64,000 nucleotides of DNA, taken from NCBI RefSeq assembly GCF_000223985.1, contig NZ_AFWV01000017.1:1-64000 (forward strand). The letters are read 5' to 3'. Source of the stretch: Thiocapsa marina 5811. Its GTDB lineage: Bacteria; Pseudomonadota; Gammaproteobacteria; Chromatiales; Chromatiaceae. The translations under genes were made by a program, and so were the position numbers. Within the stretch, counting starts at the first letter, position 1. Every line of letters begins with the position of its first letter. Positions 4,038-28,206 of this stretch are shown here, one piece after another. Under the pieces are notes generated by a model that was not told where the DNA came from, did not search any database, and was given only the letters and a program-made list of their open reading frames with translations.

Positions 4038-4358
4038 CTAGAAGTAGAATCCGCCGTCCTCGGAACCGAGGAGGTTCGAGAGGTCAACGGCTGGTTTGGT
4101 ATTGCGGCGGTTGGAGGGAGTGAGCTTTACGTGCGCGCCCGACTCATCGAGCATGACGATGCCGACCTTGACATAGCCCTTGCGGACTTTCTGTAACGCA
4201 CGCTCCCATGCTTCGCGCAGCGGCTTGACTTGCGCGTGACGAAGCTGGTTTTGCGGACCCCAACGAATCTCGGCGTCTCCGGTGCCGAGATCGCAGTAGG
4301 CCCACTCCTTGGCGGTTCCGTTCGGATGCGTGAATCGGTAGAGTTCAAACGCCTTCAC
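4038..4358 (-). CDS. WGR-domain-like small protein
   Basis: This 106-residue protein has the hallmarks of a WGR-like domain: an N-terminal ELYRF strand, a KEWAYC strand and an EIRWGP turn. Such domains are thought to bind nucleic acid or protein partners. The GTG start at 4358 overlaps the stop of the AAA ATPase gene by four bases (GTGA), indicating translational coupling and a shared role. The C-terminus ends in GGFYF, matching the FYF end of the DUF3150 protein. Size and context fit an accessory factor of the AAA/VWA complex, which is inference. Confidence 0.65.
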   Translation of the reverse strand: MKAFELYRFTHPNGTAKEWAYCDLGTGDAEIRWGPQNQLRHAQVKPLREAWERALQKVRKGYVKVGIVMLDESGAHVKLTPSNRRNTKPAVDLSNLLGSEDGGFYF

Positions 4359-5311: not shown

Positions 5312-5435
5312 GGTGGATGTCCAACAGTCGGGCGTTTACAAACGAAAATGCGCAAGTCAAAGCGACTGCGCCGTTCGATTCCGCAAACAGCGAAACTAAT
5401 CAGACATCTACATATAAAAAGCCGAAATACGGAGT

Positions 5436-5463
5436 AAAAAAACGACTCTCTTGCGGGAGTCGT
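5436..5463 (-). terminator. Rho-independent terminator
   Basis: On the minus strand, GACTCCCGCAAGAGAGTC forms a stem-loop followed by seven T residues. It lies about 20 bp beyond the stop of the Cas4-like nuclease gene and separates that operon from the AAA/VWA operon. Confidence 0.85.
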
Positions 5464-5485
5464 CAAGGGGGGTCGAGCGGTCTTC

Positions 5486-6373: not shown

Positions 6374-6427
6374 CGATGTGAGTCTCCGAAGGGTTCGGGA
6401 TGCCCTTCCGTGGGCTGTGAAATTGAC

Positions 6428-7213
6428 TTATCCGGCGCGATTCTCGATCGGACGCTGCTGCTCGGAGGCCCAGGCGTTCAGATTCTGCCAAAGCTGCGAC
6501 GCTTGTTGAGCGGTCAGATCGGACAGCCGAGTGACACTCCATTTGCGTCGCGTCCAATTCAGGACGCGGGTTTCTTGAAGGTTTAACGCATGGATTCGCG
6601 TTTGCAGGCGTTGCACCTGCTCGACCGTGATGGTCGAAATGCTCGAAGAGGCGGCAGGTTTGATTGAACGAACGACGGATGCTTCGGCGGGCATGTCTTC
6701 GATGTCTTGAGTAAAGACTTCAGACAAACCACCGAGTCGCAGTACCGCGTCGATGTGAGCGGATTTCTCCGCCATCTTCAGCGCCTTGTTCAGGTCGCCG
6801 TAGTCCTTTTTCAGACTGCGTGCACCGACACCTTGCGCAAGGACGCGAGACGTCGTGTCGACGAGCTGGCAATGCACGACGACATACTCGGGTATGACGC
6901 CTTGCGCCAACAGCGAATCCAGATCCTGAAAGGTGAAGCGCCCGACAACGCCGAGCATTCCGGCAATCTTTTCGGCACCCGGTTTCCAAAGTGACTTCTT
7001 CGCGTTGCCGTTCTTCGTCGGAATAATTCCGAAATCGACACCCTCCGTAAGCGCCGAACGAATCCAGCTCAACAGCATGGCTCGATTGTTGGACCGCCGT
7101 TCGAGACCCTCCTTAAAAAGTTCGATTGGAAGATCCAGTGGCGATGCCAAGTCGACCGACTGTCCGACCTCGTTCTCGGACATCTGCGGTATAAGATTCA
7201 GCTCTTGTGACAT
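6428..7213 (-). CDS. Conserved phage/plasmid-type protein, possible recombination partner
   Basis: This 261-residue soluble protein carries WKPGAEKIAGMLG from about residue 76, a signature I associate with uncharacterised phage and plasmid proteins that sit beside Cas4-like exonucleases. The central part (VVVHCQLVDT, GVGARS, NKALKMAEKSAHIDAVLRLGG) resembles the layout of single-strand annealing proteins. The C-terminal 80 residues form a separate module. The ATG at 7213 overlaps the upstream gene by 16 bases. I infer a role in homologous recombination with the adjacent nuclease, but no family name can be given with certainty. Confidence 0.6.
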   Translation of the reverse strand: MSQELNLIPQMSENEVGQSVDLASPLDLPIELFKEGLERRSNNRAMLLSWIRSALTEGVDFGIIPTKNGNAKKSLWKPGAEKIAGMLGVVGRFTFQDLDSLLAQGVIPEYVVVHCQLVDTTSRVLAQGVGARSLKKDYGDLNKALKMAEKSAHIDAVLRLGGLSEVFTQDIEDMPAEASVVRSIKPAASSSISTITVEQVQRLQTRIHALNLQETRVLNWTRRKWSVTRLSDLTAQQASQLWQNLNAWASEQQRPIENRAG

Positions 7214-7452
7214 AGCGATACTCCTTCATCCGTTATGATGGCATTGAGTTCAGTCGGAAATCGTGACAGCTCCGCTTGATCAAGGTCTAAGTCTTGCGTT
7301 TGATCGGCGAAAAGCGACAGTCGGAAACTTCCCGAGACGCTGTGAATCAGAATCTCACGGGCGTAGAACAGACGCTTGTTGTCTCGGCAGAAATAACTGC
7401 GAACGCAACCCAGATCGATGTTCTGAACATCGTGGACATTTAGACTGAGCAT
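7198..7452 (-). CDS. Hypothetical protein, 84 aa
   Basis: I do not recognise this small protein. It contains a predicted beta-rich N-terminal half (FCRDNKRLFYAREILIHS) and no membrane segment. It is embedded in an overlapping operon: its start shares one base with the stop of the upstream gene (TGATG), and its end overlaps the next gene by 16 bases. That packing is the main evidence that it is translated. It may be an accessory protein of the nuclease/recombination module. Confidence 0.6.
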   Translation of the reverse strand: MLSLNVHDVQNIDLGCVRSYFCRDNKRLFYAREILIHSVSGSFRLSLFADQTQDLDLDQAELSRFPTELNAIITDEGVSLCHKS

Positions 7453-7637
7453 CAGAAGGACTCCTTCTCCGAAGCAGACGTTGAAGACACTGAGTTCTTC
7501 CAGCCAGGCAAATCGTCGATCATTGATCGATCTCTTGACTTGCCTTCTTCCTCTGGTTCCCGAGGATCGTCCAGAACAGCGTCGGATAATTCGGGTAATC
7601 GGTCATGCATATCCAGCCAGCACTTGATTCGAGACAT
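7452..7637 (-). CDS. Hypothetical protein, 61 aa
   Basis: I do not recognise this small acidic protein. I take the ATG at 7637 (MSRIKCWL) and not the longer start at 7667, because the longer form would run into the terminator hairpin at 7655-7694. It overlaps the next gene by one base and heads the operon of four genes ending with the Cas4-like nuclease. Confidence 0.5.
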   Translation of the reverse strand: MSRIKCWLDMHDRLPELSDAVLDDPREPEEEGKSRDRSMIDDLPGWKNSVSSTSASEKESF

Positions 7638-7654
7638 AATTTGAATCTCCAACC

Positions 7655-7694
7655 AAAAAAGCCGCACGACACCGAAACGGCGTCAATGCGGCTT
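7655..7694 (-). terminator. Rho-independent terminator or leader hairpin
   Basis: On the minus strand, AAGCCGCA pairs with TGCGGCTT, with a further imperfect inner stem (GAC-CCG / CGG-GTC), followed by TTTTTT. It lies downstream of the XRE gene and 18 bp upstream of the next gene, so it could terminate the regulator transcript or attenuate the nuclease operon. Confidence 0.8.
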
Positions 7695-7861
7695 TCTTGA
7701 ATAGCAGAAGGGATTGGGGTTTGGACGATAATGGTACCGTCCATTACTATATTTACATATTACTCGGCCAATTCCTGCGTGTGACAACAACGACGTGATG
7801 ACATCGTGTAGATGTGATGGCCAATCATCTGATGCTGAGCATCGCAGAATAGTGCCAACAA

Positions 7862-8071
7862 CTACGCCGGTGATGCGTTCAACACCCGTGCGATCGCTTC
7901 CACGTCTTCGAGTGCGGGGCGTCGGATGCCCTGCTCGTAGTTCGCCAGTCGACTCGGACTGATTGATCCATCTAAACGTGCACTGACATCCTCGCGCGTT
8001 AATCGGGCATGATCACGCGCTGTGCGAAGACGCTCACCCATCACTTGATCCCGCGATTGTACTTTGTGCAT
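7862..8071 (-). CDS. XRE-family regulator, probably truncated by an amber codon
   Basis: This 69-residue helix-turn-helix protein has a Cro/CI-type fold (GERLRTARDHARLTREDV, then SRLANYEQGIRRP). The ATG at 8071 has GGAGG eight bases upstream. It is clearly related to the regulator at 30,080-30,391 of the same element: both share the spacing of SxSR, NxExGxRRP and the following E. The paralogue continues with SAAWLLKLE where this one stops after ASPA. The stop is TAG, and reading through gives LLALF next, so TGG to TAG is a likely nonsense change. The DNA-binding part is intact and may still function. Confidence 0.75.
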   Translation of the reverse strand: MHKVQSRDQVMGERLRTARDHARLTREDVSARLDGSISPSRLANYEQGIRRPALEDVEAIARVLNASPA

Positions 8072-8077
8072 CGTCAC

Positions 8078-8375
8078 ATCCTCCCCGTGTATGTCGCGGT
8101 GACATCCACTTTCTAAATGTGTGCGTTGTGAAATCGATTATCTCGATCGATCAGCCCCTTGTCCCTAACCTGCTACAATCGCTTCAGCCATCTGCGGTCT
8201 TTGTCAGGTGGATGATTCGGCAACGTGCTCGTGTCTTCTGCACGTTGATCTGACATCGACGATGCATCCGTTCGTCTCGTCGGTTGACTGGGTCATGTCT
8301 GCCGGACTGAGCGACGTGGACCTTTCGTCTGACGGATCGACCGTTGGTGTTCGACTTGTCACGTTAGAACGGGCA
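8078..8375. other. Intergenic region without a supported gene
   Basis: No reading frame here has a convincing start or composition. It contains the upstream region of the XRE gene and runs into the terminator of the DUF3102 gene. Confidence 0.5.
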
Positions 8376-8404
8376 CAAGAAAGCCGCCCTTTGTGAGGGC
8401 GGCT
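8376..8404 (-). terminator. Rho-independent terminator after the DUF3102 gene
   Basis: On the minus strand a perfect AGCCGCCC / GGGCGGCT stem with a seven-base loop is followed by TTCTT. It lies about 25 bp past the DUF3102-gene stop. Confidence 0.75.
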
Positions 8405-8428
8405 GGTTGGGTGAGATTCGAGGATCGC

Positions 8429-9589
8429 TTACGCGGCTTCCTTCCGGTTCTCGTCCTTCAGTTCTTCCTTAAGAAGTGTTTCCAACAGGATAATGCGAAC
8501 AGCTTTCGGATACTCATGCCATTTCGGCTTCATCGTCTCCTCCCAGAGGTGGTACAAGGCATCCCCCTGCTGTTTTTCCTTCTCTGAAAGGTTCGTCGAA
8601 TCAAGACCACGCGAGCGCAGATCCGCCAGCTCTTCAAGCGCCTGTGTTGGGCTCGGAAGGCGGACAATTCCGTGCTTGGCCAGATCCGCCTGGTCAGTTG
8701 GCGTGTTTGCGTCCTCGGTCGTTGGAGCGATCGCCTCCGTGTGCTCCGCTGCTGGTGGATCTTGACGTTCCTCGGTCCCAAGCGCTGTTGGTTCGGCCTG
8801 ATCCGTGTCTGGCCGATGCATCACGGCCGTCTGCTCCGTCCCTGTTACAGCACTGGCCGAAGCCTGGGCCGATCCGGTGGCAGTTGCTGTTGTCGCATCC
8901 GCTTCTGGTTCATTGGTCACCTGAGTGGATGAACCACCGTCATCCGGTGCCGTCGGTGGCACTGAATCACTTGTGGTTTCGGTGCTCGTCGTCGCAGTCG
9001 GCTGCTCCTGTTTGGCCGGCTGATCCAACGCTGGAATCAGCCCGATCCAAAACGCTCTGTCGTGCAGATCGACTTTATCCCCTGCATTGATCCGAGCTTG
9101 CACCTGCTGGACGGCGGTTAGAACGAGGTTCTTATCCTTGACACTCGCCAGGAGATTCAGCAGCGCGACACTGCCCGGCAAAAACGAACTGTAGTTCGGA
9201 TTTGCCAGCGTCGGGTGTTCGGCAATTCGTTTGTACTTCTCGGCTTGGCGTGCACCGAATTGGATCTTGGTCTTGATCATCTTTGTAAAATTGCCATGAC
9301 CCAAGGCTTCCTTGGCTTGGGAAAGTTGCGTTCCGATCTCGATGATGGCGCTGACACCCTTCGCGTGAGCCGTGTTGATCTTAGCGGCCCACATTTCGAT
9401 CTTCGCCTCAGGTTCTTCGATCGTCTCGGTTGGAGACACTGACGCTTGCGCAGCCGTCGTCTCGTCTGGTGCGATCAGAGAGGGGACAGAACCGAAGCAA
9501 GAGCTGGTGTTCTCCGGCAATGCGGAGGACATCGCTTCGGCCAGGACAGACTTCTTACCTAAGTAGGGAGTAGACTCTTTGTTAAGCAT
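8429..9589 (-). CDS. DUF3102-like protein with a long disordered linker
   Basis: This 386-residue protein has a helical domain at about residues 60-150 (IEMWAAKINTAHAKGVSA, then IGTQLSQAKEALGHGNF) that resembles DUF3102, a family of phage and plasmid proteins that may bind DNA. Residues from about 195 to 300 are a Thr/Ala/Glu/Gln-rich linker typical of disordered tethers. A short helical C-terminal module follows. A possible promoter lies on the minus strand near 9640-9675 (TTATCA, 18 bp, TATAGT). A terminator follows the gene. The gene stands alone, between the XRE regulator and a long gene-free stretch. Confidence 0.7.
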   Translation of the reverse strand: MLNKESTPYLGKKSVLAEAMSSALPENTSSCFGSVPSLIAPDETTAAQASVSPTETIEEPEAKIEMWAAKINTAHAKGVSAIIEIGTQLSQAKEALGHGNFTKMIKTKIQFGARQAEKYKRIAEHPTLANPNYSSFLPGSVALLNLLASVKDKNLVLTAVQQVQARINAGDKVDLHDRAFWIGLIPALDQPAKQEQPTATTSTETTSDSVPPTAPDDGGSSTQVTNEPEADATTATATGSAQASASAVTGTEQTAVMHRPDTDQAEPTALGTEERQDPPAAEHTEAIAPTTEDANTPTDQADLAKHGIVRLPSPTQALEELADLRSRGLDSTNLSEKEKQQGDALYHLWEETMKPKWHEYPKAVRIILLETLLKEELKDENRKEAA

Positions 9590-10270
9590 GGAAAATATCT
9601 CACTGGCCGTTGATGCCCATCGGCCAAAAAAAAATGAGATACACTATAGAAAGGAGGGCAAACCTTTGATAATCCAGCCACCGCATGACGGTCACTGACG
9701 ATATAAGGCTTATTTGTTAATTGGGTGACTTAGTTCCCGAGAAGGGTTGTCACCGCTTATATAATGCTCGGCTTGGCCGAGCCAGATGGGAAAGTGTGAT
9801 TAGAGAATCACTACCATCAGTTTAGTCCGTCGTCTGTCGTTGTCAAGCCGACATTTGTTGTTTTGACGCAACTCCACCGCTTCGCGTTCCTGCGTCGGCA
9901 GTGTAGCCGAATCGGCGAAAGCGGGCCTCAAACCTGATGACTGTCGGCTGGCACATTGCGACGATCAGTGTACACACTGTCCTACCCGTCATATCACCTC
10001 GCATAAATTATGGATCATATGTCGGGACATAGCGCTTCGGAAAGGACAGCATGTTGAACTGAATCTTTTCTCTACCTCGCAACCAACACTCGGTCGGCTT
10101 CGGATGCACTGCATGTCAGAATCGCAAGTATCGCTCCGGTCGTTTTTTTGAACTTATATCGAAGGTTCAAAGATGGTTCGTCGCCCTGCGATGCCCGCAG
10201 AAGGTAACCTTTAGTTTCAAATCCGCCGTTCGATCACCATCGTCCTGGATCTTGCCAAAAGGAGTAGTCA
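9590..10270. other. Long intergenic region, no intact gene
   Basis: Nothing coding is supported. A poly-A run (9627-9635) and the candidate minus-strand promoter of the DUF3102 gene lie at the left end. The strong Shine-Dalgarno-like AAAGGAGGG at about 9650 is followed only by a ten-codon frame. Confidence 0.5.
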
Positions 10271-10907: not shown

Positions 10908-13900
10908 TTAGCTGGAAGCCGGGCTAACTAAATCCATCAGCTTGGCAAAATCGGTAACGACATCGTACTTCACCTTATCCTCGGTGATGCGCTGGCCGAT
11001 CTCATCGAAGAACTTCCGCGCACAGGCGATCTTGGTCTGCTCGATCTCGCGCAATTTCATCGACGACATGCTACCCTTGGTCTCGGCGACGAAGTAGATG
11101 TGCCGCACGCTCCCGGCGCGGAATGAAATCGCCCAGTCCGGGTTATAGTCACCGACCGGTGTCGGAATCAGGAAGCCGCGGGGCAGTTTGGCGTAGACCA
11201 CCACTTCGGTGCTGGTATCCAGCTCGTTGACAAAACCCCGCTCGACATTGGAATCGACGATGGCGTAGTCGTAGATATGGTGCTTCAGCTTGGCCGTGGC
11301 GCGGGAGAAATCCTGCCCGGTCTGGCTGGCTGTGAAGATGTCGACGTCATAGTGTTCGTCGACCTCGTCATAGGCCAAGCGCTCGATTACCATGGCGGCC
11401 TTCTGCTCGGTGATCAGCCGTGAGGCTTCGGCGATGAAGTGCTCCGGGTTCTGCGGGAACTGATGGAACACGGCGGGCTGGATACCGCTTAGAATATCAG
11501 CCACGGTCTGTCGAACGAGCTGGGTGTTTTCGGCGACCTTGCCCAAGAGGTCATAACTCACCCGCGAGTGGATGGAGTCGCCCTGTTCGGTCGTCGTTTC
11601 CGAGACCTTGAAGCCATCCCCTTTGCGCAACTGCTCGTCGGTTAGCCCATCCTGCTGCAGGCCTTTCTGCACGATGTACTGCAGTGGCGTGACTCGTAGC
11701 TGGCGATCGAGTGCGCTGATGCACTTGTCGACCAGCTCATCGGATTCGAAGTCAACGCGATAAACGGCCTTGCGGTTGATGCGTTGCCAGAGTTCCTGAA
11801 AGGCATGCTTCTCGAAGTTGGCGTTGAGCGGATTGGTCTTTGGTTTGCGACCATCCTCGGGTGTCGGCAGCTGCTTTTCGCTGAAGACACTGTCGATGAG
11901 CTCGAAGATCTGGTCGGCGTGGGGCTGTAGGTCAGCCGGTAGTGCTGCCAGAGTGCCCGCTGCCTTGGCCTCGTGATAGGCATCGGCAACGTGATCGGAA
12001 TCGTCTGTATAGTCGTTCTTGACCAGATAGCGGTAGAGCTGTTTCGCCATTGCAGGGGTCAATTCGACCGGCCCCTGCTTGGTCTGCAGCACCTTGCCGG
12101 TGAAATAGGTTTCAGTGGCCTGCCGCGGGCGCGAGGATAGGGTCTCGACGATCTCCTGCTGCAAGCCCGCGACGAAGTCCTTGTAGCTTTCGCTGGCGAC
12201 CACGGTCAGCACGTTGATGTCATGCACCAAGCCCGGGTGGTCCATGCGGTCGCCCTGCTGGTCAACGCTCAGCCGCAGCCCGCGCCCGACCTCTTGCCGG
12301 CGGGAGATGCTGTTGTCGCTGTGCTTGAGCATGCACATCACGAAGACGTTCGGGTTATCCCAGCCTTCGCGCAGTGCCGAGTGAGAGAAGATGAAGCGTA
12401 CCCGTTTCTTGGCGCTGTCCTCCGGGCTGTCGTGCGGGCCAGGGAACGCCAGTAGGCTCTCCTTGTCCCTCAGGATCAGGTCGTAGGCGTCGACATCGTC
12501 GGAGTCGACGGATCGGGCACCAACCTCCGGGTCCTTGAGGCGTTTGGTCTTCTTATCGATCGCGAAATAGCCCTGATGGGTCTTGGCTGGGTCGATCTCG
12601 CCGAGGTACTTGCGGTAGTCCTCGTTGTCGATGGCCAGCTCGGACAGATACTCATCCTTGAGCAGCGCGTATTCCTCCTCGAAGACCCGGGCATACTCGC
12701 CTTTTTCGTCGGCCTGACCGTAGTCGCGGTACTTGATCACCTCGTCAATGAAGAACAGCGACAGCACCTTGATGCCCTGGGCGAAGAGCTGCTTCTCCTT
12801 GTCCAGATGGGCCTTGATCGTCTCGCGGATCTGAATGCGGCGAATGTCGCGCTCCGAGACATCACCGTTGGCCTCGCCCGCCGCCAGCACGACGCCATTG
12901 GTGAACTCGACGCTGTCGATGTTGTAGTCGATTTGACTGATGGTAAAGCCTTTGTACTGGTCCAGCCCACCGGACGCCACGAACAGGTCATCGCGGAAGC
13001 GCAGCCGGCGTAGCTGCCGCTTGATCTCGCCGGACTTCAGCTTGACCTCCAGCTCGATGCGCGCCACCGGTGCCTGCTTCGAGATGTCGATGCCTTCGAG
13101 GTAAAGATAGGCATTGGTCCCTGCGAGCCCGCGGGTCTGGATGCCGCGCACGGCGATCTTCTTGACCAGCTTCTGGTTGAATGCATCCAGCGCATCCAGC
13201 CGATGCACGCGGTGGTGTTGGGTGCGATGGGTGGCTGAGTAGCGCAGGATAAATAGCGGCTTGAACTGGGGCAGCGCCTCCAAGGTCGCCTTGCCTTCCA
13301 TCTTCTGCGGCTCGTCGATGATCAGGATCGGCCGATTCGAGGCGATCACGTCGATCGGCTTGCGCGATTGGAAGTCGTCCAGCTCCAGATAGATGCGGCG
13401 GTTGTCGGCCCCGCGCGCGTTGAACGCCTGGATGTTGATGACCATCACGTTGATGCCAGCGTCTGAGGAGAAGCTCTCAAGCTGATGCGGATTCTTAGAG
13501 TTGTAGACGAAAAACCGCGCCTTCTTGCCGTAGCTCTCGGTGAAGTGCTCGGCGGTGATCTGCAGCGATTTATAGACCCCTTCGCGGATGGCGATCGAGG
13601 GCACCATGACGATGAACTTCGACCAGCCATAGCGCTGGTTCATCTCGAAGAGGGTCTTGATATAGCAGTAGGTCTTGCCGGTGCCGGTCTCCATCTCGAC
13701 GTCGAGGTGAATCGGCGTGGCGGCGAACGCTTGCTTCCTGTACGCGGCCGTTGCTGGGACGCGGGCGCCCTTCTTGTCAAAGGCCATGAAGTCCGACAGC
13801 GACGATGAAACCGGCAGGTTCTGCCGGCGCTGGACCTTCTGGATGTTCTCGAGGATCTGCGCATCGCTCAACGTGAGATCGGCGTTCTTGAAGCCCTCAT

Positions 13901-14039
13901 CGAAGGTGCTGACCTGCGCCGTGCGGCCAGGGTCGATGCGATAGGTCAGGCCAGCGGTCATCGGCTGGCCGGCGAAACAGTCCACGACTGACTCGACGGC
14001 GTTGGTCTGGTAGGGCTGGACCTTGAATTTAAGCTTCAT
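10908..14039 (-). CDS. Type III restriction-like Res subunit (helicase-nuclease)
   Basis: This 1043-residue protein has the full layout of a type III restriction Res subunit. A superfamily 2 ATPase has ETGTGKT (K122), a DEPQ Walker B near residue 243 and a YSATH motif. Conserved helicase motifs follow ([23 protein letters not shown]). A C-terminal PD-(D/E)xK nuclease has NPDWA (D968) and AETK (E986, K988). The ATG at 14039 has GAGG seven bases upstream; TTG at 14045 is less likely. It is the last gene of the five-gene operon, eight bases after mod. Known enzymes of this family translocate along DNA and cut with Mod. All catalytic residues look intact. Confidence 0.9.
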
Positions 14040-14047
14040 GGCCAACC

Positions 14048-16063
14048 TCAGATCGATTTGACTTCAGTGGACGGCGAAAGCTGGCGGAAGATCTGTTCGA
14101 CGTTGATCTTCACTGCATCCGAGACGAAACCCTTGTCGCGAAAGATAATGCGCAGGGGCTCATGGCCGGCCAGCTCCTTGACCAGATCCTCGGTTACGCC
14201 AGGCTCGAAGCAGGCGACCAGGGCGTTGTCGTCGACGAAGAAGACCATCTTGCCCTGAATGGTCTCGCGGCGGATGGGCAGGGTCAGGTCCACGCCCCAG
14301 TCGACCAACACCTGGAACAGCAGATCCTCTGCGGTGCGATCTTCCTTGACGTTGTCCACCATGTCGAGCAGATCCGCTTGTTTGACCTCGTCGGGGCGGT
14401 AGTACACGTCCTTCATGTTTGAGGTGTCAACCTTGAGAACGCGGAAGCCGACATCGCGGTTCCAGTCGGGGTGGCAGTCGCCTTCAATTACTTTCTTGCC
14501 GGCGCGACGAATACGTTCCTTCGAAATTTCTGCGACTGTGGCTGGACGATCGCGAGCTTCAAGGAAACGTATCGCGTTCTTGGTGATCTTTTTTGCGGCG
14601 CCGGTCGCAACCTTAAGGCTTTCCTCCAAGCTCTCCGCAATCTGAATCATGTGAAATGCGCAACGGCTTCCCTGTATGCGATTCAGTTCAAATACGGCGT
14701 GCGCCGTCGTCCCAGATCCACCGAAGAAATCAAGAACGATGTCGTTTCCTCTGACTTTCATTGCTTTAAAGAGTTCTGCAAGAAGGAACTCATCCTTTGG
14801 ATTTGTGAAGACTTTTTCTCCAAAAAGCGTTCGAAGCCTTTTCGATGCAGCGCGGCCATCTAAAAAGCGCATGCTTGTAAGGCTAACCGTCTCTGTACTT
14901 TTCAGATAGGTTTTAAGGCAAGGTACCGTTGTCTCATCTTTGCCAAAGTGGACCCTGTCTTCCGAGATAAGCGAAAGAAGATGTTCCTTCGGGCAAGACC
15001 AGCCTCGCGATGGCTCTTTAACCGGTCGCTTGGTGATTGGGTGGTCGATCGAATACACATATTGGCCGTCGTTTGGGCCAGAAATGTCAGCTGGAAAATA
15101 AACCCCCCTGTCATCCATCCAGCTATAGTGTTTGCTGTCATAGATCGGGTTTGAGGGCGGGAATTCCTTATACCACTCTAGTGCAGCTTTGTGGATCGCA
15201 TCCCACTCTTTTCCATACGTAGATAGAAATCCACCAAAAGCCTTATATATTTCATCAAGCCCAGCCTTTCTCTCGGTCCAGTCTCCTGGATTTGTTTCCT
15301 TATCCTTCACATAGACAACGAAGTACTCATGCTGGATCGAGATATAGGCTTGGTCATTCTTGCTGCTATTTTTCCATACAATTTCGCCGCAAAAGTTTTT
15401 GGCGCCAAATATTTCGTCACAGACTTTCTTTAGGTTTGCATGCTCTTTCTCATCAACGGAGATCACTATAATCCCCTCTTGGCACAAAAGGTTGCGAGAA
15501 ATGAGAAGACGACTATAAATCATGCTAAGCCATTCAGAATGAAACCGACCTTCGGTTTCTCTGAGGGCGAGCAGCCTATTTCCGTCGTTATCGTGCTGCA
15601 TTGAGCGCTTTAAGAACTCCGTGGATCCTTGCGCAAAATCGTCCTGATAAACGAAATCCCTACCGGTATTGTATGGGGGGTCAATGTAGATTAATTTAAT
15701 CACACCTAGATAAGCTTCCTGAAGAAGCTTTAAGCCCTCAAGGTTATCACCCTCAATAAAGAGATTGCGTGAACTTTCGAAGTTAGAGCTTTCTTCGAGA
15801 GACGGTCGGAGAGTTTTTGCAATCGGAGCATTTGCGATGATAATGGCCTCTTTTTTGCTTGGCCAATCCAACCTATACCGTTCCTGTGGCCCATCTACAA
15901 TGTGGTCGCTCAACTCCTGCTTGAGCTGATCGAAGTCCACCGACAAACGCAGCTTCCCCGTTGAGTCGTCGCGCGCCTCGGTCACGCAGCCGGGGAAAAG
16001 CTCGCGGACCTTCGCGATGTTTTCCTGGCTCAGATCGGGGCTGTGCATCTTCAGTTTGTCCAT
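14048..16063 (-). CDS. Type III-like Mod adenine methyltransferase
   Basis: This 671-residue protein has DPPYNTG (from about residue 128) before [12 protein letters not shown] (about residue 447), the motif order of beta-class N6-adenine methyltransferases such as type III Mod. The stretch between, about residues 150-440, should include the target-recognition region. Base composition is mosaic: roughly 14,500-15,880 is much AT-richer than both ends of the gene and than all neighbours in the operon, as if the recognition core had been exchanged. It lies eight bases before res and ten bases after the DUF4391 gene. It should protect host DNA and set specificity for the complex. Confidence 0.9.
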
Positions 16064-16073
16064 GCTTGTTCTC

Positions 16074-16835
16074 TCAATCGTTCGTCGCGGCGGTGTCGGT
16101 ATGTCCCGCAGTTAACCGCTCAAGTTCTAGTTTCGCCGCGCGTAGCTCCGCATTGATCGCCACGCGCCTGTTGAATTGCTTCTCCCGCGATAGCCTCGCC
16201 TTGATTCCCTCGACTTCACGGGCCTTCGCCTCGATGGCTTCTGCCTGCGCAATGCGGGCCTCCAGCGACATAGGCTCAGCTTGCGTCTCGGGATTGGCAT
16301 ATCCTTGCGGCACCTCGGCCACGCCAGAAGTAGCGCCGGGCATCAACCGCGCAGTCTGTCTCTCGACCAACGGGCTCAGAAGCCGCTCATAGAGCGCGCC
16401 AAGATTCATCGCCACCGGCAGCGGCGCACGGGGCACCTTCTCAAGCAGCCAATCCGCTTCGAAGTAGTCGCCGACGACCCAACGCGCGCGGTCGGCTCCG
16501 CTTCTTCGTTTCCAGGCGGCGACCAGCTTGATGCGGCTGCCATGGCTCAGCTCAAAAATCAGCGGAAAGGGGATGGCCTTGTCGATTGCGCGCAGCAGAT
16601 CCCGGTCGAGCACCGCCGTCTTCTGAGCAATGCGGAAGATCTGGATTTCTGCGACTGCGTCCGTGGCTGCGAGGTTGATGGTCTCAGGCGCAAGTTTGTG
16701 CGACCAGATGATCAGCTCGACCTCGCGCACGAAGCCCTCCTTGAGTGCCCGGCTGGCGCCGGCATGTTCGTAAATCTTGGCCTTCGGGATCACTCGACCG
16801 TAAGCGGCGGCATCCGGCCAGGCATACAGGGTCAC
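16074..16835 (-). CDS. DUF4391 family protein
   Basis: This 253-residue protein matches DUF4391 as I remember it: an N-terminal alpha/beta domain beginning LYAWPDAAAYGRVIPKAKIY, a conserved central KLVAAWKRR, and a C-terminal coiled coil of about 55 residues with repeated Ala/Glu/Arg. The family occurs next to helicase and type III-like restriction genes; its function is unknown to me. The GTG start overlaps the stop of the helicase gene by four bases (GTGA), so translation is coupled. I infer a structural or adaptor subunit bridging helicase and Mod/Res. Confidence 0.8.
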   Translation of the reverse strand: MTLYAWPDAAAYGRVIPKAKIYEHAGASRALKEGFVREVELIIWSHKLAPETINLAATDAVAEIQIFRIAQKTAVLDRDLLRAIDKAIPFPLIFELSHGSRIKLVAAWKRRSGADRARWVVGDYFEADWLLEKVPRAPLPVAMNLGALYERLLSPLVERQTARLMPGATSGVAEVPQGYANPETQAEPMSLEARIAQAEAIEAKAREVEGIKARLSREKQFNRRVAINAELRAAKLELERLTAGHTDTAATND

Positions 16836-19800
16836 GCGCTGCCCCCCTCAATCACGAGAAAAGCGATTAGCTCAAAATCATCCAGCCCCTGGATGGTGGT
16901 GGTCAGCGCTGTGGTGCGGCCACCGCCGAAGAGGCTGTCGATGTCCTGCTCCTCCTTGACCTCGATCATCGAGTGGATGGCCTGGCTGAGCAGCTCGGAG
17001 TAGCGCTCCATGCGACGGCCGTCCCCGGTACGTTCGTTGAACAGCCGGCACAGCGCCCTGACTGGCTCGGACTGGCCCTTGCAACTGGCGCGGATCAGGT
17101 CGAGCAGGCGCTTGACCTCGGTGTGGTCGGCGATGATCTCGCCATCGTCGCCGATGTAGACCAGATAGAACGGGTGCAGGCGGTTCTGCTGACTGACGTT
17201 GACGCTCTCGTGAATGTTCTTCAGCGCGAAGATGGCACCGGGATGCAGCCCCATCGGTGCCTGCGCGGGTACGATGGCGTGCAGGCCAAAGGGCAGCTGA
17301 TCCAGCTCGCCATGGGCCTTGACGTACTGCAGCAGGTCCATGCGGAAGTCGTTCAGGCCCAGGTCGGTGATCGAGACGCCGGCCTTGGCGTCTTCGAGCT
17401 CGATGATCTCGTCTTGCATGCGCTTAAGCTGGTCCTTGCGGTAGGCGATGTCGTTGCTCTTGGCGGTCAGCACATTGTCGTCGCCGGTGGCGGTGACGTC
17501 GGCGATGACCATGCGGTTCTCGACCCGCTCCTTGAGGTTGATGTACTCATCGAGGCTGATGTCCGGCCAGTAGTTGATGAGCTGGATGCGGGCGTTGGGT
17601 GACCCGATGCGGTCGATGCGGCCGAAGCGCTGGATGATGCGGACCGGGTTCCAGTGGATGTCGTAGTTGATCAGGGTGTCGCAGTCCTGCAGGTTCTGCC
17701 CCTCGGAGATGCAATCGGTGCCGATCAGCAGATCCAGCTCGTGCGGCTCGTCGGGCAGGACCAACGCCTTCTCTTTGGACCGGGGCGAGAACAGGGTTAG
17801 CACAGATTGATAGTCGTAGGCGCCCTTGAGCGTGGTCTTGGGCGCGCCGGAGCCGGTGACGCGACCGCTGTGCAGACCCCGCTCGCGCTGCAGCCAGGGT
17901 GCGAGATGGTTGAAGAGATAGTTGGCGGTGTCGGCGAAGGCGGTGAATAGCAGCACCTTGCGGTTGCCGGTGTTGAGCGGCTGGTCGATCTTTGCGAGCA
18001 GGGCCTGTTTGAGATGCTGAAGTTTGCTGTCGTCCTCGGGTGCGACCTTGTCCATCGAGGCGAGTAGTTCGTCGATCAGAGCCAGATCGGCGCGCAGCTC
18101 GCGCTGCCAGGAGAGCCGGTCCATGTCGGCGAGGTGGATCTGGATCTTTTTGCCGACGGTGAAGTCGCCAAGGCCGTTGAGGTCGTCGTCGTCCGGGTCG
18201 AAGCCGGCGAGGTCTGCATCGAAAGCTGCGTCGATGCTCGTGCCGGGCTGAGCGCCGCCGGTGGTCTCGAATCGCTCGATGGCCTCGAGCGTGTCGCTGA
18301 TCTTGCCGAGCAGGGCGCGCAGGGTGAGGCGAAAGGCCTCGACCGAGCTTTCCAGGCGCTTGAGCAGGTTGGTGGTCATCAGCGCTTGCAAGCTGCGCTC
18401 GCGATCGACCTGCCGCAGCCGACCGCGACCGCCCGACGTCTGGGTGTCGTAGAGCGCCTCGTAGTGAGCAAGCCGCGAGGGCAGGATGTAGCTGACCGGG
18501 GCGTAGACGGCGAGCTTGAGCGCAGTCAGTCGCTCAAAGATCGCATTCAGGTCCATCACATCGTGGCGCGCGGTGATCGGGCAGTGATGCGATTGGGGCT
18601 TGAGGCGCTCAGGAAAGGGGCCGATGTCGCGGGTGTCGTAGAAGGTCTCGATGTGGCGCCGCGAGCGGGCGATGGTGACCGCGTCGAGCAGCTCAAAGAA
18701 ATCGAAGTCCAGGGTTTTAAGGATGCGGGCGGCGGTGCGCTTGTCCGGCGGTAGTTGCGACCAGCTGTTGAAGGCCTTCTGGGCTTGGCGAAAGATCTCC
18801 TCGACGCTGTTCTTGCTGCGCAGCTGTTGCGAAAGGGTCTCGGATTGGCCTTCATAGGCGAGCGCGAGCTGATTGCGCAGGTCGGTGAAGCGGTTGTTGA
18901 CCGGAGTGGCGGAGAGCATCAGTACCTTGGTCTTGACGCCTTCGCGGATGACCTTGTTCATCAGCTTCTGGTAGCGGGTCTCGCGATCCTTGTAGACCTC
19001 GTTGTTGCGGAAGTTGTGTGATTCGTCGATGACGACGAGATCGTAGTTGCCCCAGTTCACCCGGTTCAGAGGGATGCCGAAGGACTCGCCGCGGGTGCGC
19101 GAGAGATCGGTATGGCAGAGGACGTCGTAGTTGAAGCGGTCCTTGGCGAAGAGGTTGGTCTTGAGATTGGTGTTGAAATTGCGCCAGTTGTCGGCGAGCT
19201 TCTTTGGGCAGAGCACCAACACTGCACGGTTGCGCAGCTCGTAGTATTTGATGACGGCGAGCGCAGTGAACGTTTTGCCGAGGCCGACACTGTCGGCCAG
19301 GATGCAGCCGTTATAGGTCTCGAGCTTGTTGATGATGCCGGTGGCGGCATCGCGCTGGAAGTTGAACAGCTTCTGCCAGACCAGGCTGTCCTGATAGCCG
19401 GTGCGATCATTGGGCAGCACGTCCTCGTCGATATCGTCGAGGAACTCGCGGAAGATGTTGTAGAGCATCAGGAAGTAGATGCGCTCCGGCGCATTCTCCT
19501 GATAGACCGATTCGATATGGCTGCAGATCGCGTCGGTGACGTCGGCGAGTTGCTCGGGGTCGCGCCAGATCTGCTCGAACAGCTGCAGGTAACTGTTGGT
19601 GTGCGCGGCTTCGTCGAAGCGGTTGACGAAGTTGGAGACCGCATCGCCCTTCTGATAACCGAGGTCGGCCAAGGTGAAGCCGTTCAGCGGCATGTAGGCT
19701 GCATTGCAGGCGTCGTTGCTGACGTGGGCAAACGCCTGCATCGGCGCCTGGGTGCGGTTGGACTTGAAGCAGGCCTTGCGGCGAATCCAATCCGCGCACT

Positions 19801-20119
19801 CGCGGGCGATGGCGCGCTGCGTGAGCTTGTTACGCAGGTGAATCTCGAATGCCGTGCCGTAGAGGCTGGTCTCGCGGCCGAGCTTCGGGATGAAGAACTC
19901 GCGTCGCTCCTTGCGGAGACGGTCGGTGACCTCGGCGGCGACAAAAGTAGGCGCGGTGAAGATGAACTGCAGGCTCTCAACCTTCGAGAACTCGGCCTTC
20001 AACGCCTCGAAGGCGTACAACGAGAAGCAGGAGGCGGCGATCTTCAATCGCGCGCCTGGCAGCAGTGTTTCCTTGAGGTCGTCACCGAGCAGCGTGTTGG
20101 TGTTGTCGAGGAGCTTCAT
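16832..20119 (-). CDS. Large SNF2/HepA-type helicase
   Basis: This 1095-residue superfamily 2 ATPase has an N-terminal domain of about 250 residues that resembles the PLD-like N-termini of related helicases but lacks a clear HxK pair. The motor has DSVGLGKT (K near 282), a DESH box near 363, SATPVNNR and a C-terminal helicase half (TDCISEGQNLQDCD, then QRFGRIDRIGS). It overlaps its neighbours by four bases on each side (ATGA with the exonuclease, GTGA with DUF4391), so it is built into the operon. The likely role is DNA translocation or remodelling for the adjacent modification-restriction enzymes, which is inferred from position. Confidence 0.85.
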   Translation of the reverse strand: MKLLDNTNTLLGDDLKETLLPGARLKIAASCFSLYAFEALKAEFSKVESLQFIFTAPTFVAAEVTDRLRKERREFFIPKLGRETSLYGTAFEIHLRNKLTQRAIARECADWIRRKACFKSNRTQAPMQAFAHVSNDACNAAYMPLNGFTLADLGYQKGDAVSNFVNRFDEAAHTNSYLQLFEQIWRDPEQLADVTDAICSHIESVYQENAPERIYFLMLYNIFREFLDDIDEDVLPNDRTGYQDSLVWQKLFNFQRDAATGIINKLETYNGCILADSVGLGKTFTALAVIKYYELRNRAVLVLCPKKLADNWRNFNTNLKTNLFAKDRFNYDVLCHTDLSRTRGESFGIPLNRVNWGNYDLVVIDESHNFRNNEVYKDRETRYQKLMNKVIREGVKTKVLMLSATPVNNRFTDLRNQLALAYEGQSETLSQQLRSKNSVEEIFRQAQKAFNSWSQLPPDKRTAARILKTLDFDFFELLDAVTIARSRRHIETFYDTRDIGPFPERLKPQSHHCPITARHDVMDLNAIFERLTALKLAVYAPVSYILPSRLAHYEALYDTQTSGGRGRLRQVDRERSLQALMTTNLLKRLESSVEAFRLTLRALLGKISDTLEAIERFETTGGAQPGTSIDAAFDADLAGFDPDDDDLNGLGDFTVGKKIQIHLADMDRLSWQRELRADLALIDELLASMDKVAPEDDSKLQHLKQALLAKIDQPLNTGNRKVLLFTAFADTANYLFNHLAPWLQRERGLHSGRVTGSGAPKTTLKGAYDYQSVLTLFSPRSKEKALVLPDEPHELDLLIGTDCISEGQNLQDCDTLINYDIHWNPVRIIQRFGRIDRIGSPNARIQLINYWPDISLDEYINLKERVENRMVIADVTATGDDNVLTAKSNDIAYRKDQLKRMQDEIIELEDAKAGVSITDLGLNDFRMDLLQYVKAHGELDQLPFGLHAIVPAQAPMGLHPGAIFALKNIHESVNVSQQNRLHPFYLVYIGDDGEIIADHTEVKRLLDLIRASCKGQSEPVRALCRLFNERTGDGRRMERYSELLSQAIHSMIEVKEEQDIDSLFGGGRTTALTTTIQGLDDFELIAFLVIEGGSA

Positions 20120-20532
20120 CCTGGGAGCTTCAAATCGCGCTTGGACATGCGCAGGTCTTGCTCGGTGTCAAGAACGCACTGATTGAAGCTAGCGGTGGAG
20201 AGTGGCATCTCAAACGAATCGAACAAGAACTCGCTCATCCGCGCGCGACAGAAGCATGTGCCATTATGCGCGACCAGGGGATAGTCGCCGACGAAGTCCG
20301 CAATCTCGGACATGAGCGGCTTTGCGGGAGGTGCTTCGCGCACCATGGTTTTGCTGATTCCGGTGAGATACTCGATGAACGAGGGGATGCGCCGACCGGC
20401 GTTCATGAGGCTTTGGTACTGATCGACGATGCGACCATCGCGGATCAAGACTGCGGCGATCTCCGTCGCACGATCCCCGTAATCCGGCGACAGGCCGGTG
20501 GTCTCGAAGTCGATCACAACAACCGGTTCCAT
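20116..20532 (-). CDS. Truncated DnaQ-like 3'-5' exonuclease
   Basis: The first 100 residues match DEDD exonucleases of the DNA polymerase III epsilon type: VVIDFETTGLSP (Exo I Asp and Glu), then TGIS and YPLVAHN at the start of Exo II. After HN the expected FD with the second catalytic Asp is missing and an unrelated tail of about 40 residues follows. At 138 residues it is shorter than the usual domain of about 170-180 and lacks Exo III. The ATG at 20532 follows GAGGAGGA, an excellent ribosome site. Its stop overlaps the helicase start (ATGA), so its translation probably feeds the helicase even if it is inactive as a nuclease. Confidence 0.7.
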   Translation of the reverse strand: MEPVVVIDFETTGLSPDYGDRATEIAAVLIRDGRIVDQYQSLMNAGRRIPSFIEYLTGISKTMVREAPPAKPLMSEIADFVGDYPLVAHNGTCFCRARMSEFLFDSFEMPLSTASFNQCVLDTEQDLRMSKRDLKLPG

Positions 20533-20696
20533 TCCTCCTCCTCGTTGCCCCTGATTTCCTTGCTGTTCAAGGATGTCGATCCGTTCCATGACATGGCGAA
20601 GGCGAACCGACCGGCACGAACGGTTCCAATAGTGCACGACTGTCCACGGAACACAAACGCTGTCGCAAGCATAGCACTGTCGGTCATACTCTACCC

Positions 20697-20975
20697 ATGA
20701 TGATGCCTGACCTTGGTCAACTACTCGACCCCGCAAGATTCCCCAACATGTCCCCGCAGATGGGCGCTATTTTGGGGTATCTGTTCGAGCGCGCCTACAC
20801 GACGCCCGCGTTGGCCGAGTTGTCGGTAACGCCCGACGGTCACCTCGTCGGGAGGACCCAAGTTTCGGGCGACAACGGCCACACCCTCTACCTGGGCCGT
20901 GAAACCGATCTGCGCGCCAATCTTCGACGTCTCGGTATCGCTGCGGGGCTGAACCAGATGAGTGGACGGCGTTAG
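20697..20975 (+). CDS. Hypothetical protein, 92 aa
   Basis: I do not recognise this protein. It starts with three Met codons and has a helical first half (MGAILGYLFERAYTTPALAEL) and a beta-like second half (HTLYLGRETDLRANLRRLG). No ribosome site is obvious. It diverges from the exonuclease-led operon, with 164 bp between the two starts, so it shares that promoter region and could be a regulator or small partner. Composition is like the operon and unlike the AT-richer flank. Confidence 0.5.
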   Translation: MMMPDLGQLLDPARFPNMSPQMGAILGYLFERAYTTPALAELSVTPDGHLVGRTQVSGDNGHTLYLGRETDLRANLRRLGIAAGLNQMSGRR

Positions 20976-21271
20976 CAGAACGTGTGCGCGTGCGGATCGG
21001 ACTTAACTTGGGCGACTTCGATCCTGAGGGGCGGATATAACATCGTTGGGGATGGACTGTGAAGATTCTCTGACGCCTTTACGGTTTCAGCCTTAAAGTG
21101 CAACTCACCCGGATCTTGTCGATTGGCGGCTCGACGCGCGTTGCGGTCGGTTCGGCAGCTCCCGTGGACGACGGTCCACGACATGTAGCGACCGTCCGAG
21201 TCGTCACCCGATATGTCGGCAGGCAGACACAAACCGGACGTTCGGTGAGCTGGCACAACCGCCAGCCATCG

Positions 21272-21341
21272 ACGCGTCGTTCAGTCGACGCGTATCCGGA
21301 CTTTCAGTCCGTGATGCAAACCCACCGGCTTTAGCAGGTGG
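21272..21341 (+). mobile_element. IS200/IS605-end-like hairpin cluster (no transposase)
   Basis: Three hairpins follow each other: ACGCGTCG-TTCAGT-CGACGCGT (21272-21293, perfect 8-bp stem), CGGAC-TTTCA-GTCCG (21297-21311) and CCACC...GGCTTTAGC...GGTGG (21322-21341). Loops of TTCAG/TTTCAG and a GGCTTTAGC core are typical of IS200/IS605-family ends and TnpB-associated guide RNAs. No tnpA or tnpB is present in the window. This may be a decayed end or a stand-alone mini-element. The call rests on pattern memory only. Confidence 0.4.
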
Positions 21342-21379
21342 TTGTTTAATATAGTAATTTTGATTGCCACTCTGCACAA

Positions 21380-23098
21380 ATGAGGATTAGTTCACGCGAC
21401 ATGACATGCGGGCACCTGGCCGCTCCCGGCACGGAGGTCAACTCGCCATCGGCCTTCGGGTCATACTTGAAGGACCATGCCGTCAGGCTGCCTCAGGACT
21501 GCTCGCTAAAGCAGATGGTGGAGTGGGGCTGGATCTCTCCTATTCTCCGAGTTGCCCTCTCGCGTTCCGCGCTGGATTCCTGGAATAACTTCCCGGTGTC
21601 CCCAATGGTCGGCACGGAGTCGTGCCTTGCTGATGACCGCTGGACTCTGACGCTTTGGAGCAACGTGGTCACATCGCAGGTGGGGCTAAAGCCGGGAAAT
21701 GGCGAACCGATGTGGTGGACACACTTCCTGGATGATCTGGGTGAGCCACTCACGCAAGAGGTCTTGAAACACGTCATAGACCCCGCGAACCCGATGCTGC
21801 GACCGCAGCCATTCCAGCAAACATCATCTGGACGGGAGATCGCTCCATGGATCGATTTCTTTGCCTACTGGCAGTCATACCAGGTGGCCGAGCTATTAGG
21901 GGCGGTCTCGTTTGTGATCCGAGCTACTCCGGAGTTCAACGAGAGAACTGCCGGCGGTGAGGAGTTCCGCCTAGCCCTCATTGATGCGCAGGTTAGGCGA
22001 GTGAAATCTAGGTGGCAAAAAAGGAGGTCAACGTACGAGTGGCTGTCACGGTTCCGAGTGATCTTGGCCGCGTGGTCCAGCACCAAACGCCCTTGGTCCG
22101 ATGTCGAGACGGCGGCCCACGCGCTTGCTGCGAAGTACCGACTGACGGGCCCGCGGGTCGTCACGAAGATCCGCAATGTTCTCTTGGTTACCTGGCAAGA
22201 CTGGGCCAACGTGGACGATGTCGCTCTTCCAGGCGGCTACAAACTACGGGCGCTTCTCAGGCAGGACATCGAGTACGCCCTGGTCTTGGCAGAGATCCTT
22301 TCGGGCTCTGAGGTTGATTTTCTGGCTCCCTTTTGGACCAACTCTGACCGCCGAAGCCGTCGATGGGCGCAACTGATCGACGCCTTGCCCTGGGAAGCTG
22401 AGCTTGCGAGGTATCACTTCCCGGACCTGGCGATGATGTACCTAGAGAGTCATGTTACTGTCGTCCCCTCTTCCTTCAGCCTTGATGCTGAGGAGATTCG
22501 CAGCGTTATCTCGGCTTACTGGAGCCGGTCTCGTCCGCTGAGGCGCTTCTGCTTGGCTTTCTACAGGCTCCACAAGGAGCTGAGCGACGAAGATCTTGGC
22601 GCAGAGCAGGGGGTAGTGCGATCGAACGAGCGGATCGAACAGCTTCTCCTAACTGTCCTGAATGCAGAGAAATTGTTGGTTTCGATCGCTCAAAATCGGA
22701 ACGGAGGCAGCGGAGATCGCAAAACACGAAAAATCGCCAAGGACCAACTCAATTTCACCCTCGGCAAATTCCGACTGCACGGTAACGACGTCGGGCGAAA
22801 GTCGAGGGAGGCTGCAAAGAGGTTACTCGATGCGTATGCTGACCTATACGACCTTGGCAGTCGTGGAGATCGCATCTTCGTTTCAGCCGACGCTGTGGAA
22901 TCAGGGTCAGTTCAAGCGGACTACTTCGTGGCGGCTTTTGTGAACTTCGTCATAGTCCGAAACTATGCGGCTCACCACGACAGTCTTGACAGTCAGCTTG
23001 TCTTCAGGAATGAGTGTGATGTAGGCGAACACCAAGGACGCGTCGCACTGCGCAGCGTGCTTTCCGTGGTGATTACTTGCCTACAGCTTGACCGCTGA
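21380..23098 (+). CDS. Large protein with C-terminal HEPN-type Rx4H motif
   Basis: This 572-residue soluble protein is unlike anything I can name over its first 480 residues, which are rich in Trp and charged residues. Near the C-terminus FVIVRNYAAHH gives R527-N-Y-A-A-H532, the Rx4H signature of HEPN ribonucleases, with hydrophobic helices on both sides (ADYFVAAFVNF before, SVLSVVITCLQL after), as in Apea-like HEPN domains. It lies within the accessory region beside the restriction-type operon, on the opposite strand. The ATG at 21380 has no strong ribosome site; a TATAGT box is about 30 bp upstream. A single-gene abortive defence role is plausible but inferred. Confidence 0.65.
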   Translation: MRISSRDMTCGHLAAPGTEVNSPSAFGSYLKDHAVRLPQDCSLKQMVEWGWISPILRVALSRSALDSWNNFPVSPMVGTESCLADDRWTLTLWSNVVTSQVGLKPGNGEPMWWTHFLDDLGEPLTQEVLKHVIDPANPMLRPQPFQQTSSGREIAPWIDFFAYWQSYQVAELLGAVSFVIRATPEFNERTAGGEEFRLALIDAQVRRVKSRWQKRRSTYEWLSRFRVILAAWSSTKRPWSDVETAAHALAAKYRLTGPRVVTKIRNVLLVTWQDWANVDDVALPGGYKLRALLRQDIEYALVLAEILSGSEVDFLAPFWTNSDRRSRRWAQLIDALPWEAELARYHFPDLAMMYLESHVTVVPSSFSLDAEEIRSVISAYWSRSRPLRRFCLAFYRLHKELSDEDLGAEQGVVRSNERIEQLLLTVLNAEKLLVSIAQNRNGGSGDRKTRKIAKDQLNFTLGKFRLHGNDVGRKSREAAKRLLDAYADLYDLGSRGDRIFVSADAVESGSVQADYFVAAFVNFVIVRNYAAHHDSLDSQLVFRNECDVGEHQGRVALRSVLSVVITCLQLDR

Positions 23099-28193: not shown

Positions 28194-28206
28194 CTCATTG
28201 CCCTCC

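Follow-up and report, generated by a model that had tools for sequence, protein, structure and literature searches.

A 64,000-nucleotide stretch of the Thiocapsa marina 5811 genome (hereafter the window) carries five open reading frames (ORFs) at 10908–20532, all on the minus strand. Four of them, encoding an SNF2-like ATPase, a DUF4391 protein and the type III restriction-modification subunits Mod and Res, form a conserved cassette, and the fifth, an exonuclease-like ORF, lies outside it. The reading we prefer, to which we give a probability of about 0.5, is that this mobile cassette encodes a type III enzyme with an accessory, nuclease-dead SNF2 motor that would be joined to it through DUF4391, with Mod setting the specificity.

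Linkage and order of the four genes

Among 84,980 species genomes scanned, 422 stretches encode a DUF4391 relative, and all four genes are present in 71 of the best 80 that were kept. Eight of the other nine end at a contig edge (seven without Res, one without SNF2), and the ninth (L108; L, G and C numbers are our labels for loci, genomes and contigs) has only a short SNF2 remnant of 64 bits ahead of DUF4391. An earlier reading of the window from its sequence alone (the original prediction) had assigned SNF2 and DUF4391 to Mod/Res, and had named their rarity beside Mod/Res in other genomes as the outcome that would count against it; with 71 of 80 loci holding all four genes, the assignment is borne out.

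The other collections gave the same picture. Fourteen of the 20 IMG/VR loci are complete and four are cut by contig ends; in the last two (L105, L106) the match is confined to a short C-terminal stretch of DUF4391 (residues 201–239), without the other genes. Further loci from the class (8 of 14) and the phylum (14 of 22) are complete, and the incomplete ones are contig ends, as in L035, where the contig stops 1.3 kb past Mod, apart from L038 (broken DUF4391), L039 and L040 (of the HKD type described below) and L071. Plasmids yielded 16 complete loci out of 17 fetched, and the plasmid records that match DUF4391, 38 in all, are also the 38 top-ranked ones for SNF2 (lists compared by eye). At the Pfam cut-off DUF4391 occurs in 13 of 369 class genomes and 23 of 398 phylum genomes, the window's own genome being counted in both. 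This SNF2 (E ≤ 1e-100) occurs in 17 genomes of a 299-genome phylum sample; 16 are DUF4391-positive, and the seventeenth (G428) is of the HKD/methyltransferase type.

The order SNF2–DUF4391–Mod–Res recurs in 121 of 123 complete loci, which places the grouping beyond chance. Of the two exceptions, L107 fails only through an extra Mod fragment and L034 is truly rearranged. Some records among the 123 are counted twice, having been fetched from different collections (e.g. L087 and L140; as these are the same record, an IMG/VR contig can be bacterial). Complete loci with a long SNF2 frame number 118, or 111 without near-identical copies, and fall into 52 groups at ~90% identity. Hosts include Pseudomonadota, Bacillota, Actinomycetota and one archaeon, with annotated cassettes in Methylotuvimicrobium, Phaeobacter, Mycolicibacterium, Weissella and the archaeon Methanomethylovorans.

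Several cassettes hold additional genes between Mod and Res or between DUF4391 and Mod. One inserted family occurs in 24 loci (two of them repeats of one record), and its one tested member is a Schlafen AlbA_2 protein; rarer insertions encode GmrSD, RhuM, Fic, DUF4917/AbiH-like and PLD-like proteins, and another encodes an ATP-dependent endonuclease with DUF2130. The window cassette has none of these. Such insertions would suit a passive co-localisation of two mobile defence modules without common function, yet the order is the same in 121 of 123 complete loci, with Pseudomonadota, Bacillota, Actinomycetota and an archaeon among their hosts, the genes overlap or abut, and SNF2 relatives are split by HKD state and by partner; we regard mere co-localisation as highly improbable.

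Some loci do speak against a fixed four-gene unit. In L071 DUF4391 (2–859) lies at a contig edge, and neither Mod nor Res follows in the next 9.6 kb. The plasmid locus L215 lacks Res over 5.3 kb, no DUF4391 of L232 passes the threshold, and in L108 SNF2 is reduced to the remnant noted above. Moreover, DUF4391 was the query that led to most loci, and the 80 retained rank highest in likeness to the window's; the set therefore overstates closeness and does not probe DUF4391-free loci.

The exonuclease ORF does not share this conservation. Its DnaQ-like homology spans only about the first 92 residues, over which an intact paralogue in the same genome, a 221-aa frame (G000:C54:212023-212298), is 86% identical. 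DNA similarity to the paralogue breaks off at 20264, inside the exonuclease, and similarity to the cassette of Lamprobacter modestohalophilus (L107) starts at 20125, beside the SNF2 start. No close relative was found when the open frames of 167 fetched loci, the window among them, were searched. As a truncated copy of an intact gene without close relatives elsewhere among the loci searched, the ORF was rejected as a system component, and the exonuclease-derived peptide that the original prediction had counted among the components is better described as a gene fragment. Its ATGA overlap with SNF2 (20116–20119) is accordingly taken as incidental.

The search gave only two other exonuclease matches, both distant, in L079 and L040. 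Each lies upstream of SNF2 on the same strand, that of L079 ~1.7 kb away; in L040 the match is an intact dnaQ-like gene, and the SNF2 gene that it closely precedes is of the HKD type. Landing next to a gene of this sort may therefore have recurred. A third locus, L217, has an annotated 3'-5' exoribonuclease downstream. In L040 the SNF2 gene (1818–5144) begins 145 bases past the intact dnaQ-like gene (5289–6038), and the window SNF2 likewise begins 145 bases past the end of the exonuclease homology. This equal spacing is possibly chance, possibly a common landing place.

The SNF2 motor and DUF4391

The motor motifs DSVGLGKT, DESH and QRFGRIDRIGS are invariant or nearly so in 39 aligned SNF2 sequences, whose mean column identity is 78%. 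The N-terminal region matches the PLD/HKD part of its family, and the HxK...D...GSxN pattern is absent from it, both by pattern search and by alignment. Across 141 loci with a long SNF2 frame, with DUF4391 detected by profile, the HKD pattern is absent in 134, all of which also carry DUF4391, Mod or Res. It is kept in the other seven (L039, L040, L204, L230, L231, L239, L240), and all seven adjoin an Eco57I-type methyltransferase. At ~90% identity these are 60 motif-less and 5 HKD groups. The SNF2 of L039 is 42% identical to that of the window, and on a tree of 61 SNF2 sequences a single change suffices to explain the HKD split. Scans of viral contigs with an HKD-type SNF2 gave no match.

An eighth HKD-SNF2/methyltransferase locus, L238 from a Parabacteroides plasmid, was read by eye. 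There (3250–9913) an HKD-type SNF2 is followed by an N-6 methylase, with a gene for an RNA-binding domain upstream and a TIR-domain gene downstream; this gene set is a candidate second system.

AlphaFold2 predicts for DUF4391 an alpha/beta core (residues 1–165) and two long C-terminal helices (mean predicted local distance difference test, pLDDT, 87.4), and the helices hold the conserved motif EKQFNRKVELN. The N-terminus of these Eco57I-type methyltransferases weakly resembles DUF4391, with Pfam E-values of 8e-5, 3e-4 and 6e-3 in the three tested, all scoring below the Pfam cut-off. An hhalign comparison of a methyltransferase alignment (six of eight sequences; L238 and L240 left out) with a broad DUF4391 alignment gave E 1.2e-4 and a probability of 55%. 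Homology between DUF4391 and the methyltransferase N-terminal region is likely on these comparisons. DUF4391 has no sequence match in the PDB up to E 1 and no matching PADLOC 2.0.0 model. In the open-access PubMed Central literature searched, it is named in one paper, PMC7784981, where it fills one line of an enrichment table.

Several of these results are less favourable to an SNF2 motor that lost its nuclease and is held by DUF4391. Since it was a methyltransferase search that led to L238, L239 and L240, the partner seen in these loci adds no independent evidence, although their HKD state does. The branch parting HKD from motif-less SNF2 has a support of 67, and two of the HKD rows are long branches. 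The SNF2 structure prediction is poor (pLDDT 60.5), below the quality needed for a fold search. The DUF4391 model matched no solved fold (Foldseek, E ≤ 0.001), and a second comparison (VIA-align) covered almost only its C-terminal helices. With a narrower DUF4391 alignment the hhalign probability falls to 9%, and the methyltransferase N-termini of L238 and L240 show no DUF4391 likeness by eye.

The same data bear on whether SNF2–DUF4391 might be a defence effector in its own right, for example a translocase blocking phage replication or transcription, acting outside the Mod–Res enzyme with Mod methylation shielding self. Intact motor motifs in a highly conserved protein would fit such a role, as would SNF2 relatives that partner a different methyltransferase and a cassette that gathers defence-type genes (Schlafen/AlbA_2, GmrSD, Fic). 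However, the SNF2 nuclease motif is missing in just those loci that have Mod/Res, which suggests shared work, and, contig-end loci aside, no SNF2–DUF4391 pair turned up without Mod or Res. We consider a separate effector unlikely.

Mod, Res and exchange of the Mod core

Both type III subunits are homologous to those of EcoP15I, which they match in the methylase core of Mod and the helicase core of Res. Mod matches EcoP15I Mod at E 6e-81 (PADLOC MTase_III, 686 bits) and carries DPPYNTG and a second motif, which we take to be methyltransferase motifs. Res, which matches EcoP15I Res at 3.7e-64 with the endonuclease motif aligned (PADLOC REase_III, 1082 bits), combines an SF2 helicase core with a C-terminal endonuclease domain (~10950–11309) bearing the PD-(D/E)xK motif YNPDWA...ETK.

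Type III systems are known to exchange the target domains of their Mod subunits. The Mod core of the window lies in an AT-rich stretch (~14.55–15.9 kb, 43–50% GC against ~60% in the flanking genes), and residues 200–520 share only 27–30% identity with Mod of the Lamprobacter and Halochromatium cassettes, while in Res these two are 89–90% identical to the window; the Lamprobacter SNF2 is 93% identical. A core similar to the window's is found in Amaricoccus and Novosphingobium (L116, L134), with 76% identity over the whole Mod. Escherichia coli gives a closer view of the exchange. Ten of 5,426 E. coli genomes match the L022 cassette, and 10 of the 11 places are on plasmids. In three of these cassettes SNF2 is 98.7–99.9%, Res 99.8–99.9% and DUF4391 90.8–97.8% identical to L022, whereas bins across the Mod core (residues ~200–440) drop to 5–42%.

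The best reading of these comparisons is that the Mod core is an exchanged specificity module and that targets would be chosen by Mod. Because the core is exchanged beside near-identical SNF2 and Res, the same SNF2, DUF4391 and Res probably serve more than one target. This gives no support to the "extra target sensing" of the original prediction, if a target sequence is meant, since the core is swapped while SNF2 and Res stay 98.7–99.9% identical. DUF4391 as the specificity partner of Mod is unsupported as well: L295 keeps DUF4391 at 97.8% despite its exchanged Mod core. In L293 and L294, where DUF4391 is 91–92% identical, it may have moved along with the exchanged tract. The Mod C-terminus was considered as a docking surface specific to SNF2/DUF4391 and rejected, as the plain Mod L275 keeps it equally (62%); this conservation, not being specific to the cassette, counts against a dedicated attachment site. 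A second Mod gene or piece is present in L281 (4281–8256), L089 (7439–11757) and L136 (10734–15295), which are cassettes or pairs; extra Mod genes are perhaps stored alternative specificities.

Mod/Res also occurs on its own. Related Res was found in 37 of the 299 phylum-sample genomes, and 18 of the 37 are DUF4391-positive, a count per genome and not per operon that includes three genomes (G369, G455, G536) with Res and DUF4391 on different contigs. Twenty regions were fetched for Res outside known cassettes, with G489, G370 and G434 left out. Seven (G437, G224, G628, G418, G644, G549, G519) have Mod/Res, or Res with a partial Mod, with several kb upstream and neither extra gene; the Mod of G224 is a weak fragment and the Res frame of G418 is short. 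The remaining regions are contig ends, except for G638 (L282:6635-14973), where Mod–Res is preceded by a different helicase frame of 953 residues (61–70 bits to SNF2) that abuts Mod, a further kind of helicase–Mod–Res layout. Because pairs without the extra genes exist, SNF2–DUF4391 looks accessory to Mod/Res; a SNF2–DUF4391 module without Mod or Res was not seen, apart from contig-end loci.

On the Res tree, from which L280, L281 and L285 were set aside as their contigs end just upstream of Mod, Res from plain pairs falls within the cassette Res, with 6 label changes, as few as in 26 of 500 shuffles. The module has therefore been lost or gained repeatedly, a point against the preferred reading.

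Plain pairs also bear on the possibility that SNF2–DUF4391 regulates the type III enzyme, for example by holding Res inactive until a new host has been methylated. A mobile, plasmid-borne cassette would call for such establishment control, and small helix-turn-helix (HTH) or WYL genes lie just upstream of SNF2 in several loci. Nonetheless, plain Mod/Res pairs exist without the module, and a 1095-residue ATPase would be costly for regulation. A regulatory role therefore seems to us improbable.

Known relatives, proposed mechanism and meaning

The usual type III form has two genes and no further conserved subunits. Such enzymes methylate one strand of an asymmetric site and cleave ~25–27 bases downstream of one site in an inverted pair. 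We know of no SNF2 or DUF4391 partner genes for EcoP15I. The cassette shares with EcoP15I (Mod2Res1; structure 4zcf) homologous subunits, an N6/N4 methylase domain in Mod, a helicase–endonuclease Res with its PD-(D/E)xK motif, and adjacent mod and res genes on one strand, but it adds two co-conserved genes. Since SNF2 and DUF4391 are co-conserved, we class it as a type III variant and not as a plain member.

The best PADLOC match of SNF2 is C3a139 "HKD+Snf2" (PDLC01075; 409 bits, residues 178–1089), a family that accompanies type III CRISPR loci. Unlike that family, the window SNF2 and all 134 cassette loci examined lack the HKD motif; no CRISPR family is present among the Pfam matches of ten neighbouring proteins. 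The pairs of HKD-SNF2 and Eco57I-type methyltransferase share with the cassette a homologous SNF2 and, where tested, a DUF4391-like methyltransferase N-terminus, but they have an intact HKD motif and one methyltransferase in place of DUF4391–Mod–Res.

As described in PMC12839542, DUF499-centred, BREX-related type 2 systems have a Swi2/Snf2 helicase with an N-terminal HKD nuclease and an N6-methyltransferase. The helicase and methyltransferase are what they share with the cassette; the core of those systems, however, is a DUF499 ATPase with an HKD effector, neither of which was found in the cassette, and the cassette has a type III Res. Neither a DUF499/BrxC ATPase nor PglZ was found among the five operon proteins or the ten neighbours. 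ARMADA type II (PMC12458937) and DISARM with DrmD likewise place a RapA/SNF2-like helicase and a methyltransferase in one operon, but the window operon has no YprA-family helicase or PglX-like methylase. None of the five operon proteins has a YprA-family helicase (DrmAB, ArmC) as its best match, and none of the ten neighbours gave such a match; the DISARM DrmD model scores 148.7 bits, below the NCBI curated cut-off of 610. A figure legend in PMC11090510 lists SWI2/SNF2, PLD and Mod/Res genes among the defence genes near CoCoNuT systems; DUF4391 is not named in that paper, and the legend is too brief for a comparison with the SNF2–DUF4391–Mod–Res cassette. No description of the four-gene arrangement, of the HKD absence or of the HKD-SNF2/methyltransferase link was found in the open-access PubMed Central literature, a scope that excludes subscription papers, REBASE and DefenseFinder. 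The component families are already known, and we rate the arrangement as a putative new type III restriction-modification variant, prior cataloguing being possible.

Within the window, the layout given by the original prediction was reproduced from the sequence: five frames (Table 1) with two four-base overlaps, the second a GTGA at 16832–16835 between SNF2 and DUF4391, and gaps of 10 bases between DUF4391 and mod and 8 bases between mod and res. A mechanically called res frame opens at TTG 14045 (1045 aa). Gene spacing suggests a single transcript, and a scan of 20000–21400 found no promoter-like site. Genome-wide searches found a single DUF4391 gene and a single RE_endonuc domain, both in the cassette. 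Elsewhere in the window, CobT/VWA, DUF3150 and CbbQ-type AAA genes stand in a row (1097–5311); such sets are known from integrative elements and large plasmids, and this one may point to the element that carries the cassette. Two ORFs near the cassette, of 572 and 880 aa (21380–23098 and 25605–28244), have no Pfam match at E 0.001. On an Acinetobacter gerneri plasmid (L217:2235-7847), the cassette adjoins a Tn7-like set (TnsA, Mu-type transposase, TniB, TniQ).

Table 1. Genes and regions of the cassette operon in window coordinates.
Feature	Position	Strand	Description
Exonuclease-like ORF	ATG 20532 to stop 20116	-	Pfam RNase_T, N-terminal part only
SNF2/RapA-like ATPase	16832..20119	-	1095 aa; Pfam SNF2-rel_dom/Helicase_C; best PADLOC match C3a139 "HKD+Snf2"
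DUF4391 protein	16074..16835	-	253 aa, GTG start; Pfam PF14335, E 2e-50
mod, type III adenine methyltransferase	14048..16063	-	671 aa; N6_N4_Mtase/MTase_III
res, type III restriction subunit	10908..14039	-	1043 aa from ATG 14039; ResIII + RE_endonuc/REase_III
Variable Mod core	14504..15466	-	Residues ~200–520; presumed to include the target-recognition domain
DUF4391 C-terminal helical region	16086..16265	-	Residues ~191–250; proposed docking element
SNF2 motor core	17555..19387	-	Residues ~245–855; alignment of 39 sequences
SNF2 PLD-like N-terminal region	19505..20119	-	Residues ~1–205; without the HxK...D...GSxN nuclease motif
Exonuclease remnant	20116..20532	-	DEDDh (DnaQ-like) homology stops ~20264; taken as non-component

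Under the mechanism we propose, Mod would recognise and methylate the target and Res would translocate and cut, as in EcoP15I. DUF4391 would act as an adaptor tethering SNF2 to the Mod–Res enzyme, and SNF2 would be an ATP-driven translocase or remodeller of double-stranded DNA, leaving Res as the sole nuclease. Our best guess is that the SNF2 motor moves Mod/Res along phage DNA or strips bound proteins from it, so that Res could cleave DNA that lacks two converging sites or has them blocked. The probable ancestor of the module is a simpler system, in which this SNF2 still had an active PLD nuclease and partnered a single Eco57I-type methyltransferase whose N-terminus was DUF4391-like; on joining Mod/Res, cutting would have passed to Res and the PLD site decayed. 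In this scheme the assembly of a complex, DUF4391 as its adaptor, the work of the motor, the direction in which the system changed and the origin of DUF4391 are inferred from sequence and gene context.

A wider form of this reading is tentative and, in our view, rather doubtful. Cassettes of this kind would make up a widespread two-motor class of type III systems, in which SNF2 came from an autonomous PLD-nuclease/methyltransferase system, lost its nuclease and kept its motor, DUF4391 split from the methyltransferase, and the two became the third and fourth stable subunits of Mod–Res, SNF2 through DUF4391. If so, the complexes would restrict DNA by rules unlike those of EcoP15I, and, with DUF4391 in 18 of the 37 Res-positive genomes, their frequency may be near that of plain type III systems.

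A catalogue such as PADLOC 2.0.0, whose models match Mod, Res and SNF2 (the last as C3a139), would see mainly a type III pair in this operon, and the one family that SNF2 matches takes its name from a nuclease motif absent from this protein. Should the two additional proteins prove to be subunits, a large share of what now passes as type III restriction-modification would be a machine of another kind, and activity would go unnoticed in assays limited to the Mod and Res of these operons. DUF4391 gains a concrete setting, and the absence of the SNF2 nuclease motif together with the presence of Res offers a testable case of a restriction system rebuilt from the parts of another.

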